From Gemmatimonadota bacterium (lineage in GTDB: Bacteria; Gemmatimonadota; Gemmatimonadetes; Gemmatimonadales; GWC2-71-9), in assembly GCA_040388535.1 (NCBI GenBank), contig JAZKBR010000001.1, positions 21,764 through 85,763 of the forward strand: 64,000 nucleotides of DNA, read 5' to 3'. A model generated the notes under the pieces. It was not told the DNA's origin. It made no database searches and saw only the letters and a list, made by a program, of their open reading frames with translations. Position 1 is the stretch's first letter; each line of letters starts with the position of its first letter. Positions 19,777-25,824 of the stretch are shown piece by piece. The translations under genes and the position numbers were made by a program.

Positions 19777-20817
19777 ATGCGATTCACCCCTGCCCTGTTC
19801 CTGATGATCTTGGCGGTATCGGCACTCTCGTCGCAGTCGCCGCGGGTGACCGAGCAGCAGAGTGGTACCACGCAACTGTTGCAGGCGGTGAGCGCCGTTA
19901 ACGACAAGGTCGTCTGGGTCAGTGGCCACGGCGGCGCCGTTGCCCGAACGCTCGACGGCGGTGAGCACTGGACCATTCGCCCGGTCCCGGGTGCAGAGAA
20001 GCTGGAGTTCCGCGACATCCACGCGGTCAGCGCCGAGGTCGCCTGGGCGATGAGTGCGGGACCCGGGCCACAGTCGCGGATCTACCGCACCACGGATGGT
20101 GGCGCGACCTGGGGGATGCAATTCACCAACGCCGACACTGCCGCGTTCTTCGACTGCATCACCTTCTTCGACAAGAAGACCGGGGTCGCCTTCAGCGATG
20201 CGGTCGGTGATCGGACGATGATCCTCCGCACGACCGACGCGGGCGAGCACTGGAACCTCATTCCCGCAACGGCAGCGCCCAAGGCGCTCAAGGGTGAGGG
20301 TGGCTTCGCGGCGAGCGGTGGCTGCCTGGTGAGTTCGGGCTCGAAGCGGGGCTGGATCGCGACGGGAAGCCCCGAGGCACGGATCCTCCGCACCGACGAC
20401 GCGGGCAAGAGCTGGCACACGTTCGCCACGCCGTTCGTCCGCAGCGCTGACGGTGCTGGCATGACGGCGACCTCGTGGCTCGACACCAGGCGCGGTATTG
20501 GCGTCGCGGCCCGCATCAGTGCCCGCGGCACGACCGACACCGCCTCGGCCGTCGTGGGGATCAGTGATGATGGTGGCGCGACCTGGACGCTAGGCAGCCG
20601 TCCGACACTTCCCGGCGGGATCTATGGCGTGACGTGGGTGCCAGGCGCCGGTCGCAACAGTGCCGTCGCCGCCGCGCTCAGCGGACTGCAGGTCACCACC
20701 GATGCTGGCAAGAGCTGGACAGCGGCGACGACATTTCCGTATTGGAGCGTGGGGGCTGCCGGCAAGCGCGCCTGGGGTGTCGGTCCACGCGGCCGGATCA
20801 CCCGACTCGACTTCTAG
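19777..20817 (+). CDS. Exported YCF48-like/Asp-box beta-propeller protein
   Basis: A 346-aa protein with a signal peptide (residues 1-19) ending SALSSQ. The mature part contains at least six Asp-box-like repeats: [40 protein letters not shown] and TTDAGKSW, spaced about 40-60 residues apart. These build a YCF48/BNR-type propeller. YCF48 in cyanobacteria assists photosystem II assembly, but in non-phototrophs such proteins are of unknown, probably scaffold, function. The gene overlaps the dapD stop by four bases at its 3' end (convergent). Confidence 0.8.
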
Positions 20818-21653
20818 CGCAACAATTCCTCGAGCGTCACCGCGGCGTCGGTCTTCGCGTCGCGGTACTTCACGATCACGGGAGCATAGAGCGCGATCCC
20901 GCGCGCGACTCCCGACCCCGATGTCACCGGCCGCGTCCCGGGCACGACCACCGCACCCGCCGGAATTTCGAGTGGCGTGTCGCCTTCGCGTCGAATCACC
21001 CGGTCGTGGACCAGATCGAAGACGGCGGTTCCGCCTGAGAGAATGACTCCCGGCGCCAGCACGGCGCGCTCCCGTACCACGGTGCCTTCGTACACGCCAC
21101 AGTTGCCCCCCACCAGCACGTCGTCTTCGATGATCACCGGCAACGCACCCGCGGGCTCGAGCACGCCCCCAAGCTGGGCGGCCGCGGAGAGGTGCACTCG
21201 CTTCCCGACCTGGGCACAGGAGCCGACGAGCGCGTGGGAGTCGATCATCGTCCCTTCGTCGACATAGGCGCCGACATTTACGTAGCTGGGCGGCATCGCA
21301 ATCACGCCACGCGCGAGGTAGGCACCCTCACGCACCGCCGTGCCGCCGGGGACGATCCGGATTCCCTCGTCCGAGCGAGTCGGTCGGAGGCCGTAGGTGT
21401 CCTTGTCGAAGAAGGTCATCGGGCCGGCAACACCCGCCGCGCGCAACACTCCGATCCGGAACCCCAGCAGGATCCCCTGCTTCACCCAGCGGTTCACACG
21501 CCAGACCCCGCTGGCATCTCGTTCTGCCGCGCGGACCCGGCCGTCCTGGAGTGCCTGCTTCAGCACCGCGAAGATCTCGCGCGCTTCGTCCTGCCTGCCA
21601 TCCGGTGCGCCATCCAGAAAGGGCGCCAGCTGCGCCTCGAGGCCATCAGACAC
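20814..21653 (-). CDS. dapD: 2,3,4,5-tetrahydropyridine-2,6-dicarboxylate N-succinyltransferase
   Basis: Succinylates tetrahydrodipicolinate in the succinylase branch of diaminopimelate and lysine synthesis. The protein is 279 aa from GTG at 21653, close to the 274 aa of E. coli DapD. The N-terminal helical domain is followed by left-handed beta-helix hexapeptide repeats from about residue 100 ([52 protein letters not shown]). The frame remains open upstream into dapA, but that part is out of frame with a real protein, and the GTG start gives [15 protein letters not shown]. It overlaps dapA by 8 nt and is the last gene of the lysine operon. Confidence 0.9.
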
Positions 21654-22530
21654 TGACACCTTCCAGCTGGTCGAGGTGGAGCCGCAGCCGCTCGCGGAGT
21701 GCCGGTGTGCACGGCACCAGTGGCAGCCGGACGGTATCAGTGCACTTGCCCAGCAGCGACAGGGCAGCCTTGATGGGGATCGGGTTGGATTCGGCAAAGA
21801 GCGCATCGATGAACGGCAGCAGGCGCTGTTGCTCGGCGAGTGCCTGCCCCTGCTGGCCCTGCATCGCCGCGCTGACGAGATCGGCAATCCGGTGCGGTAT
21901 GGCGTTGCCCGCCACCGAGATGAGGCCGTGTGCGCCCGCAGCAATGGCGGGGACCACGACGTCATCGTCACCGCAGAGGACCACGAAGTCGCTGGGCACG
22001 CGTGCCGTCAGGTCGAGCATTCGTCGCACGCTGCCGCTCGCCTCCTTGATGCCACGGATGTTCGTGTGCCACGCGAGCGTGGTGACGGTTTCCGGCTTGA
22101 GGTCGACCCCGGTCCGGCCCGGCACGTTATAAAGCAGCAGCGGGACCTTGATCGCATCGGCGATCGCCTCGAAATGCGCGATCATCCCGGCCTGCGTCGG
22201 CTTGTTGTAATACGGGGTCGCGCTCATGATGCCCGCGACACCGAGTTCGCTCAGATGACGCGCCTCGGCGACGGCGCGCGAGGTGTCGTTGTCGGTCGCA
22301 CCGGCGAGCACCGGGACCATGCCACCCACTGCCTGCACCACGGTGCGAACCACGAGTTCGCGCTCGTCCGGGGTGAGCGTCTGCGCTTCCCCGGTCGAGC
22401 CACAGGCAACGAGGAAGTTCATCCCTTCGGCGACCTGCCAGGCCGCCAGTCGCGCCAGCGCCTGGTAATCGACGGCACCATCGTCGGTGAACGGTGTGAC
22501 CAGGGCGGTTCCCGCACCTATGGGGATCAT
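21646..22530 (-). CDS. dapA: 4-hydroxy-tetrahydrodipicolinate synthase
   Basis: Condenses aspartate semialdehyde with pyruvate, the first committed step of the lysine branch. The protein is 294 aa, a TIM barrel. Schiff-base Lys is in [12 protein letters not shown] (about residue 160), the Tyr in [15 protein letters not shown], and the Thr pair region is [10 protein letters not shown]. The 3-nt gap from dapB and the overlap with dapD fit one operon. In many bacteria DapA is inhibited by lysine; nothing here argues for or against that. Confidence 0.96.
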
Positions 22531-22533
22531 GGC

Positions 22534-23226
22534 TCAGTCTCCTGCGAACATTGCATCGAGGGTGAAGGTACCGCGCCGGCCAGCAAGCCAGCGAGCGGCA
22601 GTGAGGGCACCAGCAGCAAATACGCGGCGATCCCGTGCGGAGTGTCGCAGGGTGATCGCTTCGAACGGACCGTCGAGTACGAGTTCGTGGTCGCCGGGGA
22701 TCGACCCGGCTCGCACCGATGTGATCGGCCAGACTCGCCCTGGATCTGCCGCCCGAACGGTGCGCTGCAACTGCAGGCCCGTGCCAGACGGGGAATCGAC
22801 CTTGGCGGCGTGGTGCCGTTCGTGGAGAAAACCGTCGAATTCAGGTCGACTCGCGGCGGCCAGGGCGAGCGCCTTCGCCGCGCGCAAGAAGAGCTGTACC
22901 CCGAGGGCGAAATTGCTGGCGATCAACAGCCCGCCCGGGCCCTTGCTCCAGTGCAGCTCGACGGCCTCGCGTTCGGCATCCCAGCCGGTTGTTCCGCAGA
23001 CCACGGTCGCACCGATGGCCTGCAGCGCCTTCAGGTTGACCGGCGCGGCATCGGGAACCGTGAACTCGAAGACCACGTTGCAGTCGCCGAAACGTTCACT
23101 CGTGATTCCGGACCCTGCAGCATTCTGGGCCGCGCCCAGAATGGTGCCGACGATGTCGCCAGCAGCAGTTGCCTCGGCCGCGATTGCCTGAGCCATCCTG
23201 CCATCGCCCACGATGCCGATCTTCAC
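22534..23226 (-). CDS. dapB: 4-hydroxy-tetrahydrodipicolinate reductase
   Basis: NAD(P)H-dependent reduction of the DapA product. The protein is 230 aa, shorter than the E. coli enzyme (273 aa) but within the compact range. The nucleotide-binding GDGRMAQAI is at residues 7-15, and the family signature ERHHAAKVDSPSGT carries the catalytic His pair and Lys. GTG at 23226 overlaps the lysC stop (GTGA), so translation is probably coupled. Neighbours dapA and dapD complete the pathway segment. Confidence 0.94.
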   Translation of the reverse strand: MKIGIVGDGRMAQAIAAEATAAGDIVGTILGAAQNAAGSGITSERFGDCNVVFEFTVPDAAPVNLKALQAIGATVVCGTTGWDAEREAVELHWSKGPGGLLIASNFALGVQLFLRAAKALALAAASRPEFDGFLHERHHAAKVDSPSGTGLQLQRTVRAADPGRVWPITSVRAGSIPGDHELVLDGPFEAITLRHSARDRRVFAAGALTAARWLAGRRGTFTLDAMFAGD

Positions 23227-24569
23227 GCGACCTCCGGAAAGAAGGTGCGATGCAGTGCGCGCACGACGGCGGGCCCGTCGGCTTCCTTCACGATGAATGT
23301 CAGGTTGGATGCCGAGGCACCCTGCGAAATCATTTCGACGTTGACATCGGCGATCGCGGTGTAGACTCGCGCCGCAATGCCGGGCGTTTCGCGGATACCT
23401 CGCCCAACGACCGCAATCACGCCCCGCTCGCCACGTACTCCGACCTCGCCGACGAGCCGCAGGTCACGAACGACCGGCTCGAGCCGGGATACGTCGTCGA
23501 CCGTGAGGGATACCGACACCTCGCTAGTGGCGAGGACATCGACCACCACTTCGTGCTGCTCGAACACTTCGAAGATACGTCGCAGGAAGCCATACGCGCC
23601 GAGCATCCGGGGTGCCCGGACTTGCACCACCGTCACGCCGGGCTTGAACGAAATGGAGCGGACTGGCAGAGCGTCTTCGGCGTTGTCATCGGCGCGGATC
23701 CAGGTACCCGGGCGAGCCGGTGCAAAGGTGTTGCGAATGACAATGGGGATTCCGGCCTCGACCAGCGGCAGCTGCGTCGCCGGATGGAGCACCTTGGCGC
23801 CAAAGGCGGCAAGCTCAGCGGCCTCGTCGTAGGTAGCGGTCGCCAGCAACCGCGCCTCGGGCACCAGCCGCGGGTCGGCACTCATCAAACCGTCGACATC
23901 GGTCCAGATCTCGACACGCTCTGCGCCGAGCGCCGCTCCAAAGAGGGCCGCCGAGAAATCTGAGCCGCCGCGGCCAAGCGTTGTGGGAGCACCATCGGGG
24001 GTTGCGCCGATGAACCCCTGCGTCACCGCAATCATTTCGGCAAGGAGGGGCGCGAGTTGCGAACGTGCGTTCTCGTGAATGCGGTTCTCGTCGGGGATCG
24101 CCGATCCGAAATGATCATCGGTGATGATCACCCTGCGAGCGTTGAACCAGCTGGCCGGACCCCCGGCGGCGCTGAAGGCTCCGACCACGAGCTGGGAGCT
24201 GAGCAGCTCGCCAAAACCGGCAATGAGGTCACGGCGCCGCGGCGAACTCGGCTGGCCCGCCTCCGAAGTCGCGATGCTCCGTAGCGAGACGAACAACGGG
24301 GCAAGCGCACCGCGGTCCGACGCGGTGATCCCGAGGGCATCGGCCGCGGAGAAATGACGCTCCTCCAACTGGCGGATTCCTGCCTCGACAATTGCGGGGT
24401 GGCCCGAGGCGATGGCCGCATCGAGCGCGACGAGCGCGTTGGTCACCTTCGACATGGCGGAGACCACCACGAGGGGACGCTCGTGCGACGCCGCAAGCAC
24501 AATATCCACGAGTCGTCGGATCGCGTCGGCATCACCAACAGAGGTGCCCCCGAACTTCATCACGATCAC
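23223..24569 (-). CDS. lysC: Aspartate kinase (monofunctional, ACT-domain)
   Basis: Phosphorylates aspartate, entry to lysine, threonine and methionine synthesis. The chosen start is GTG at 24569 (448 aa), giving MIVMKFGGTSVGDADA, the usual N-terminus; it overlaps the dapE stop as GTGA. A further upstream in-frame extension exists but only reads through dapE in the wrong frame. The kinase domain shows KFGGTSV, the GRGGSDFSA loop and IWTDVDGLMSADPR. Two ACT domains fill the C-terminal about 150 residues, expected to bind inhibitory lysine or threonine. There is no fused homoserine dehydrogenase. Confidence 0.95.
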   Translation of the reverse strand: MIVMKFGGTSVGDADAIRRLVDIVLAASHERPLVVVSAMSKVTNALVALDAAIASGHPAIVEAGIRQLEERHFSAADALGITASDRGALAPLFVSLRSIATSEAGQPSSPRRRDLIAGFGELLSSQLVVGAFSAAGGPASWFNARRVIITDDHFGSAIPDENRIHENARSQLAPLLAEMIAVTQGFIGATPDGAPTTLGRGGSDFSAALFGAALGAERVEIWTDVDGLMSADPRLVPEARLLATATYDEAAELAAFGAKVLHPATQLPLVEAGIPIVIRNTFAPARPGTWIRADDNAEDALPVRSISFKPGVTVVQVRAPRMLGAYGFLRRIFEVFEQHEVVVDVLATSEVSVSLTVDDVSRLEPVVRDLRLVGEVGVRGERGVIAVVGRGIRETPGIAARVYTAIADVNVEMISQGASASNLTFIVKEADGPAVVRALHRTFFPEVA

Positions 24570-25570
24570 GCGACGGCTCCGGCGAGCAGGATCCGGGCGA
24601 CTTCGACGTACTGGGTCACTGCATCGACCAATTCCTGCTTGCCGATATTCTCGTGATCGGTATGCGCGAGATGGATCGTGCCGGGTCCGAGCTGATAGCC
24701 GGTTCCCCACGCAGTGTAAAATGGCAAGTCCGATCCGTAGGCTACGGTGATCGCCGGGAAACCAGGGAGCACCGGGGCGCGGAGTACCGGGATCTCCAGC
24801 GGGAACTCCACCTTCACGCGGTCGGTAACCGCTGCGGTGATCGCATCCCGCACGGGCGCGGCATCGCCGACAAGCCGCACCATCAACTCCGCGCGAGCGC
24901 TCGGGGCGATAACGTTCGGAGCAGCGCCTCCTTCGATCCGGCCAATGTTGAGTGTGCTCTTCCCGAGCACCGGATCGCTCGGCAGGGGAATGCTCCGGAT
25001 CGCGGCCAAGGCATCGAGGAGGCGATCGACCGCCGAATCACCGAGTTCGGGATAGCCCGAATGCGCGGCGACGCCGCTCGCCTCGAGTGTCACGCGTAGA
25101 ACACCCTTCTGGCCGGTCACGACGTGGTTCTCGGTCGGCTCCCCATTGATGATGAAGCGGCCCTTCGGCTCCAGCAGAAAGGCGACCCTGGCGCCATCGG
25201 AACCGTTCTCCTCGCCGACCACGAAGAGGAGCCCGACCCGCGTTTCCCCGCTCGCTACCAGCTGCTCGGCCGCCACGACCATCGCGGCCGCGATTCCCTT
25301 GGCGTCGCAGGCGCCGCGGCCGTGAATGTGGGTCGTCGTTTCGCTGAACGGCACATCGGGTGGCACCGTGTCGAGATGGGTCGAGAACACCAGCTCGGGC
25401 GCTCCGCGATGAGCATAGATATTCTCGCGACCGTCCCGCACCGGTTGCCGTTCTACGTGCCAGCCGGCCGACCCAAGAAAGTCGGCCAGCCAGGCCGTGA
25501 CCGCGTGCTCCCGTCCAGTTGGCGAAGGAATGGCGAGCAGTGCGCGGGTCAGTTCCAGCACATCGGTCAT
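24566..25570 (-). CDS. dapE: M20 peptidase, probable N-succinyl-diaminopimelate desuccinylase
   Basis: Zinc hydrolase of 334 aa from ATG at 25570. Metal and catalytic motifs are STHLDTVPP (His, Asp), GRGACDAKGIAAAM, GEENGSDGA (catalytic Glu and metal Glu) and the C-terminal HTDHENIGKQELVDAV (His). A dimerisation lid sits between about residues 160 and 270. As first gene of an operon with dapD, dapE function is favoured over ArgE or LysK, but within M20 the substrate cannot be read from motifs. An in-frame extension up to 25711 would translate through the terminator hairpin and is rejected. The GGGG of the terminator arm lies ten bases before ATG and may serve as ribosome-binding site. Confidence 0.85.
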   Translation of the reverse strand: MTDVLELTRALLAIPSPTGREHAVTAWLADFLGSAGWHVERQPVRDGRENIYAHRGAPELVFSTHLDTVPPDVPFSETTTHIHGRGACDAKGIAAAMVVAAEQLVASGETRVGLLFVVGEENGSDGARVAFLLEPKGRFIINGEPTENHVVTGQKGVLRVTLEASGVAAHSGYPELGDSAVDRLLDALAAIRSIPLPSDPVLGKSTLNIGRIEGGAAPNVIAPSARAELMVRLVGDAAPVRDAITAAVTDRVKVEFPLEIPVLRAPVLPGFPAITVAYGSDLPFYTAWGTGYQLGPGTIHLAHTDHENIGKQELVDAVTQYVEVARILLAGAVA

Positions 25571-25576
25571 ATACAC

Positions 25577-25606
25577 AAAACCCCGCCCGACGATGGTCGG
25601 GCGGGG
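25577..25606 (-). terminator. Intrinsic terminator in the dapE leader
   Basis: On the minus strand an 11-bp perfect stem (CCCCGCCCGAC with GTCGGGCGGGG, 25606-25596 and 25591-25581) closes a 4-nt loop and is followed by UUUU at 25580-25577. The U-run ends six bases before the dapE ATG at 25570. Placed before rather than after an operon, it is best read as an attenuator terminator. Confidence 0.85.
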
Positions 25607-25709
25607 CTCCACGGTGAAAGTCGTGGGTGAACTGCTAAGCCAGTGCCGACCAAGTCGAGACCCTCGGTTCCGCGCGCTTCGAGGCGCAGAACAGAGGGGA
25701 CTTCTTGGC
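25581..25709 (-). promoter_or_regulatory. Putative lysine-responsive, ribosome-mediated attenuator
   Basis: Four segments can form mutually exclusive hairpins on the minus-strand RNA. Segment 1 (GCCAAGAAGUC, about 25709-25699, includes both tandem Lys codons) can pair with GACUUGG of segment 2 (25656-25650), with a 3-nt bulge. UGGUCGG of segment 2 (25652-25646) is exactly complementary to CCGACCA (25600-25594), which is segment 3, the 5' arm and loop edge of the terminator. Segments 3 and 4 form the terminator. Ribosome stalling at the Lys codons would block segment 1, free segment 2 and so suppress termination when lysyl-tRNA is scarce. This is inference from pairing; it has not been folded by software. 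Confidence 0.6.
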
Positions 25710-25736
25710 AACCCGCTTGAGCAGAAGAGGACGCAT
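25635..25736 (-). CDS. Putative lysine-operon leader peptide
   Basis: A 33-codon frame from ATG at 25736 to TAG at 25635, followed by the terminator and dapE. It begins MRPLLLKRVAKKSPL and ends RVSTWSALA. Lys codons are at positions 7, 11, 12 and 20, all AAG, and the adjacent pair lies in the segment able to pair with codons 27-29. No good Shine-Dalgarno sequence precedes the ATG, so translation could be weak or leaderless. The peptide resembles no protein I know, as expected for an attenuation leader. It lies in a different frame from dapE. Confidence 0.6.
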   Translation of the reverse strand: MRPLLLKRVAKKSPLFCASKRAEPRVSTWSALA

Positions 25737-25824
25737 TGGACACAACGCTAATTGCGACGCCAAGGGGAGGACAAGGGGGGCTGACCTAGAGTGGAGGCGG
25801 CGCCGCTGCTACTTTCCCTGCCGT

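Follow-up and report, generated by a model that had tools for sequence, protein, structure and literature searches.

A probable lysine-responsive, ribosome-mediated attenuator upstream of the diaminopimelate operon in Gemmatimonadota

The window, that is, the whole stretch of 64,000 nucleotides of Gemmatimonadota DNA that was analyzed, carries on its minus strand the diaminopimelate (DAP) operon dapE-lysC-dapB-dapA-dapD, preceded by a short frame with a putative promoter and by a strong hairpin just before dapE. These features are listed here in the order in which they would be transcribed.

25769..25774, minus strand: -35 element TTGTCC, with an 18-nt spacer to the -10 element (predicted from sequence; layout recurs in relatives)
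25745..25750, minus strand: -10 element TAGCGT, 8 nt 5' of the leader ATG (predicted; transcription is expected to start on the ATG or directly beside it)
25635..25736, minus strand: leader peptide frame MRPLLLKRVAKKSPLFCASKRAEPRVSTWSALA, ending in a stop codon (translation; Lys enrichment; identities with the leader of locus L067)
25699..25709, minus strand: region 1, which holds Lys codons 11-12, with 25656-25650 as partner (minimum-energy fold predicted for the free leader)
25646..25652, minus strand: region 2, 5' strand of the antiterminator, in the last leader codons (predicted pairing with 25600-25594 when the ribosome is at Lys)
25595..25609, minus strand: region 3, 5' arm of the terminator and 3' strand of the antiterminator (folding, comparison with relatives)
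25581..25592, minus strand: region 4, 3' arm of the terminator hairpin (folding; outer pairs conserved)
25577..25580, minus strand: T-run past the hairpin, TTTTGTGTA (sequence)
24566..25570, minus strand: opening gene of the operon, "dapE", an M20-family deacylase (NCBIfam DapE-ArgE subfamily; does not reach any curated cut-off)
23223..24563, minus strand: lysC, lysine-sensitive aspartokinase (NF006570, above cut-off)
22534..23226, minus strand: dapB (TIGR00036, slightly below cut-off)
21646..22530, minus strand: dapA (TIGR00674, above cut-off)
20814..21668, minus strand: dapD (NF008808, above cut-off)

The product of 24566-25570 scores under every curated DapE, ArgE, or LysK cut-off, so that its assignment as DapE and its exact activity rest on the operon context. 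The operon goes on with asd-lysC in most of the other genera that were examined. Lysine accounts for 1.6% of the residues in the operon's own proteins. The next gene upstream of the leader is a divergent tRNA-Ser, which means that no upstream gene on the same strand needs a terminator, and the hairpin was thus rejected as the terminator of an upstream gene.

The leader frame (25736..25635) comprises 33 codons and a stop, with Lys at positions 7, 11, 12, and 20, and the reading given in a preliminary description of this DNA proved correct to the base upon translation. The strong hairpin noted there is also present, at 25609-25581 (GAGCCCCGCCCGACC-AT-CGTCGGGCGGGG), followed by TTTT, with six bases between the T-run and the dapE ATG at 25570. 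The terminator hairpin has a dG of -27.1 kcal/mol, and the genome contains hairpins with this core at just four sites.

The absence of a clear Shine-Dalgarno sequence before the leader had been regarded as the weak point of an attenuation model. We observe that the leader ATG lies where transcription should begin: a TTGNNN-17/18-TANNNT promoter layout also precedes the leaders of relatives, and in 11 of 15 leaders the ATG falls 6-9 nt past the -10 element, a start-site prediction made from sequence. The leader mRNA is thus probably leaderless, in which case a missing Shine-Dalgarno sequence is no weakness. Neither the -10 element TAGCGT nor the -35 element of this leader fits the consensus, and the first Us can be drawn into the hairpin stem by G-U pairing, which explains why a generic consensus scan for promoters and terminators detected neither the promoter nor the hairpin of this leader. 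The promoter-to-ATG pattern occurs 55 times in the bacterium's own genome, compared to 23 times for a reversed control, and this roughly twofold excess suggests that leaderless genes are common there. Many of these matches are the starts of long genes that resemble uvrA, trpS, and ddl, as named by eye; leaderless-type starts in genome G000 include L223 (trpS-like), L224 (uvrA-like), and L242 (ddl-like).

A short Lys-containing frame together with a hairpin of the GCCCCGCC/GGCGGGG type was found directly upstream of dapE in 15 genomes, from about ten genera and two families. The set consists of L062 (the window), L067, L068, L070, L071, L073, L075, L082, L093, L094, L095, L096, L098, L104, and L198; the first 14 belong to the window's own family (f1, about nine genera) and L198 to another family of the same class. 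Of the 14 family-f1 leaders, 11 have their stop 58-70 nt before dapE. The closest relative with a leader, L067, encodes MTVVSSLPVAKKCAPTRAKKCAGRGNTTWPALA before its stop, a peptide of the same length as that of the window, retaining Lys 11, 12, and 20 and sharing 13 of 33 residues, an identity matched by 6 of 100,000 shuffles. Five of the leaders have a single Lys only. In the proposed comparison of dapE upstream regions, the Lys frame and the terminator thus occur together in 15 genomes, and the hairpin occurs without a Lys frame in six relatives (L077, L078, L079, L097, L099, and L100). Four dapE genes, most of those from the same genus, have neither Lys frame nor hairpin. In relatives that lack the leader, or whose tails are poor in U, the attenuator may have been lost or replaced by control of translation. 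In the sister family f2, no leader was found in 20 sampled dapE upstream regions, and a promoter seems to be positioned right at dapE. Where lysC precedes dapE, the lysC upstream regions showed no convincing leader. Genome G139 has two dapE copies, L102 and L104, and carries a Lys leader at L104 only.

Lysine stands out among the amino acids encoded by these frames. Over the 15 leaders, Lys occupies 35 of 448 codons, compared to 9.2 expected from dinucleotide shuffles (z = 10.6, reached in 0 of 2000), and the other two frames of the same leaders contain three Lys codons each. The next most enriched amino acids are Met (z = 5.6) and Thr (44 versus 30.8 expected, z = 3.0). Since some of the 15 frames had been picked by eye, we applied a rule blind to lysine, consisting of TTGNNN, a spacer of 16-19 nt, TANNNT, an ATG 5-9 nt later, and a frame of 8-60 codons. 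This rule recovers 11 of the 15 leaders, which by themselves give z = 10.1 for Lys. At dapE loci, 11 of its 12 matches are Lys leaders (the window, read twice, is among them), and at hisG loci all eight matches are poly-His leaders such as MLIHAHRHHAHHHGVSGAV, which ends in a stop (one of the eight was read twice). The fact that the rule yields only poly-His frames at hisG constitutes a built-in positive control. No match was obtained in the trpE and ilvB loci, and a tryptophan or branched-chain leader recognizable by this rule was discarded for these loci. Overall, the Gemmatimonadota loci scanned amounted to about 1.2 million strand-bases, from which the blind rule returned His and Lys leaders and almost nothing else. 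Leaderless poly-His frames lie upstream of hisG at L181, L184, L191, L192, L194, L195, and L196, several of them followed by strong terminators; the Rfam His_leader family did not match the hisG poly-His leaders.

Three mutually exclusive pairings had been proposed for the leader RNA, of which 2:3 and 3:4 are present and 1:2 is found in the window, without being general in relatives. In the window, the 2:3 pairing (25652-25646 TGGTCGG with 25600-25594 CCGACCA) is a perfect 7-bp helix, while 1:2 (25709-25699 GCCAAGAAGTC with 25656-25650 GACTTGG) is bulged and forms part of the minimum-energy fold predicted for the leader when free. When the window sequence was folded with a ribosome masked at Lys 7, 11, 12, or 20, the 3' arm of the terminator not yet being made, 25652-25646 was predicted to pair with 25600-25594; once the ribosome was moved to the stop codon, the terminator alone remained. 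Across 14 leaders, region 2 falls within the last codons or around the stop. The 2:3 pairing energy compared to shuffles gave a negative z in 14 of 14 leaders (Stouffer -4.1), the window by itself being no better than shuffles (z = -0.39), and native partners beat partners swapped in from other genomes (p = 0.008). In most relatives, stalling of the ribosome gives more predicted pairing of the terminator arm than its arrival at the stop codon does, L067 and L198 being ambiguous. Protection of the free state by 1:2 is seen in the window and some relatives; in most relatives, folding indicates that free RNA would also antiterminate, from which we take the choice between 2:3 and 3:4 to be the conserved switch. 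Sequence conservation is restricted to the hairpin, whose outer eight pairs are conserved in 18-20 of 20 relatives, and the stretch before it is conserved only in Lys coding and pairing. About nine of the 15 leaders have poor U-tracts, and 6-7 T within nine bases past the hairpin are found in the window, L067, L068, L071, L082, and L104.

A search of the whole window with 4227 Rfam families returned tRNAs only, with neither the lysine riboswitch (RF00168) nor a T-box, and neither the window nor the other leaders gave a riboswitch or T-box match, whether the gathering score or the looser limit of E up to 1 was applied, so that such an element at the dapE leader was rejected. The bacterium's own genome has no lysine riboswitch match, and among 101 genomes searched a single one contains this riboswitch, G001, which belongs to the same genus. 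It lies at L248:1306-1496 (85 bits), about 57 nt upstream of an asd-lysC pair. The dapE gene of G001 has no Lys leader, and the estimated contamination of this genome is 3%.

We propose that the region is a lysine-responsive, ribosome-mediated attenuator of the DAP operon, with a probability of about 0.86. The parts, their recurrence, their lysine specificity, and their pairing potential are established at the level of sequence, and the earlier idea that the operon is attenuated by lysyl-tRNA gains support from the recurrence, the Lys enrichment, and the shuffle and swap tests of pairing. According to this model, the promoter at 25774-25745 would direct transcription from the leader ATG or a position adjacent to it, and ribosomes would translate the leaderless frame. 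With ample Lys-tRNA, the ribosome would get to the end of the leader and cover region 2, allowing 3:4 to form, and RNA polymerase would halt before dapE. When Lys-tRNA is scarce, a ribosome stalled on the Lys codons would mask region 1, region 2 would pair with region 3, and dapE-lysC-dapB-dapA-dapD would be transcribed. If the window leader is not translated at all, 1:2 is expected to form and the terminator to be favored again.

Lysine stalling in the leader might instead act on translation, the hairpin blocking ribosome access to the dapE start and antitermination freeing it, with termination of minor importance. Such an arrangement would fit the position of the hairpin, whose end is in most cases 6-10 nt away from the dapE ATG, the U-poor tails such as GTCTCGTTC or GTTTGCATT of several relatives, and the 3' arm GGGCGGGG, which is the sole G-rich stretch near the dapE start. 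However, the T-rich tails of the window and the five leaders that share them argue for termination, and a polycistronic operon controlled in this way would still be fully transcribed; we consider this explanation rather unlikely. A contribution of threonine to the sensing, in addition to lysine, is conceivable since lysC and asd feed both amino acids, and it agrees with the Thr enrichment, visible in L071 and L093, and with a Sinorhizobium frame of six Thr and three Lys codons, a proposed leader before an aspartate-pathway gene (PMC10117765). Nevertheless, the enrichment is modest and the window leader has one Thr, which makes co-sensing improbable here.

The remaining two alternatives do without a lysine-sensing peptide. 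An ordinary upstream frame followed by a constitutive 5' hairpin, serving as mRNA stabilizer or weak terminator, would account for the six relatives that keep the hairpin and have no Lys frame, but not for a Lys enrichment that is specific to one frame and unequaled by any other amino acid, nor for the His-rich leaders that the blind rule picks out at hisG, and we regard it as very unlikely. Direct reading of lysine or tRNA-Lys by a metabolite-binding riboswitch or a T-box has in its favor the lysine riboswitch of one genome of the same genus; given the Rfam results above and a pre-hairpin sequence that is unconserved apart from Lys coding and pairing, it appears extremely improbable.

The trp, his, thr, leu, and ilv operons are controlled by classical ribosome-mediated attenuators, with which the region before dapE shares a leader rich in the end product, exclusive antiterminator and terminator structures, and a site before the first biosynthetic gene. 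It differs from them in its proposed sensing of lysine, in its probably leaderless mRNA, in a 1:2 pairing that is not general, and in its occurrence in Gemmatimonadota. The usual framework for lysine genes is the lysine riboswitch (Rfam RF00168), which acts on this pathway, here in a single sister species, but binds lysine directly and has no match at the dapE locus. Tsubouchi and colleagues are said to have described, in J Biol Chem in 2005, a lysine leader peptide for the lysine gene cluster of Thermus thermophilus; this would likewise be lysine-responsive leader-peptide attenuation, although of the aminoadipate pathway and in an unrelated phylum, whereas the operon studied here belongs to the diaminopimelate pathway. 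The novelty claimed in the preliminary description is therefore to be narrowed: the mechanism is that of the classical amino-acid attenuators, the pathway and the phylum are new, and the idea is not. For comparison, no conserved RNA element was detected upstream of lysine operons in a survey that covered Actinobacteria (PMC1262725).

Leaderless leader peptides have been described for the polycysteine frames of mycobacteria (Canestrari 2020, going by the account in PMC9031893) and for tryptophan in Sinorhizobium trpL (PMC10117765). In these systems, as would be the case for the probably leaderless Lys leader, a short frame that begins the mRNA without a 5' leader causes attenuation; they differ in the amino acid, which is cysteine or tryptophan and not lysine. 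Sinorhizobium SEP5, whose translation was detected by Ribo-seq and Western blot, is described only as a possible Thr/Lys leader peptide (PMC10117765); judging from that description, it resembles the Lys leader in being a small frame that contains Lys (and Thr) codons and precedes a gene of this pathway.

Gemmatimonadota quite likely possess a class of leaderless leader-peptide attenuators, so far for His and Lys, of which the Lys version would be a recurrent DAP sensor that can be exchanged for the lysine riboswitch, since in one genus some species carry the attenuator at dapE and another carries a riboswitch before asd-lysC. Leaderless attenuation would then no longer be confined to the mycobacterial and rhizobial cases, as those are portrayed in the sources cited above, and the combination of a promoter, an ATG 5-9 nt past the -10 element, and a short frame provides a usable search rule for leaders. 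A lineage nearly devoid of the lysine riboswitch appears to rely on the translation of a leaderless mini-frame, and the presence of both sensors in one genus makes the exchange of RNA sensors testable among close relatives.
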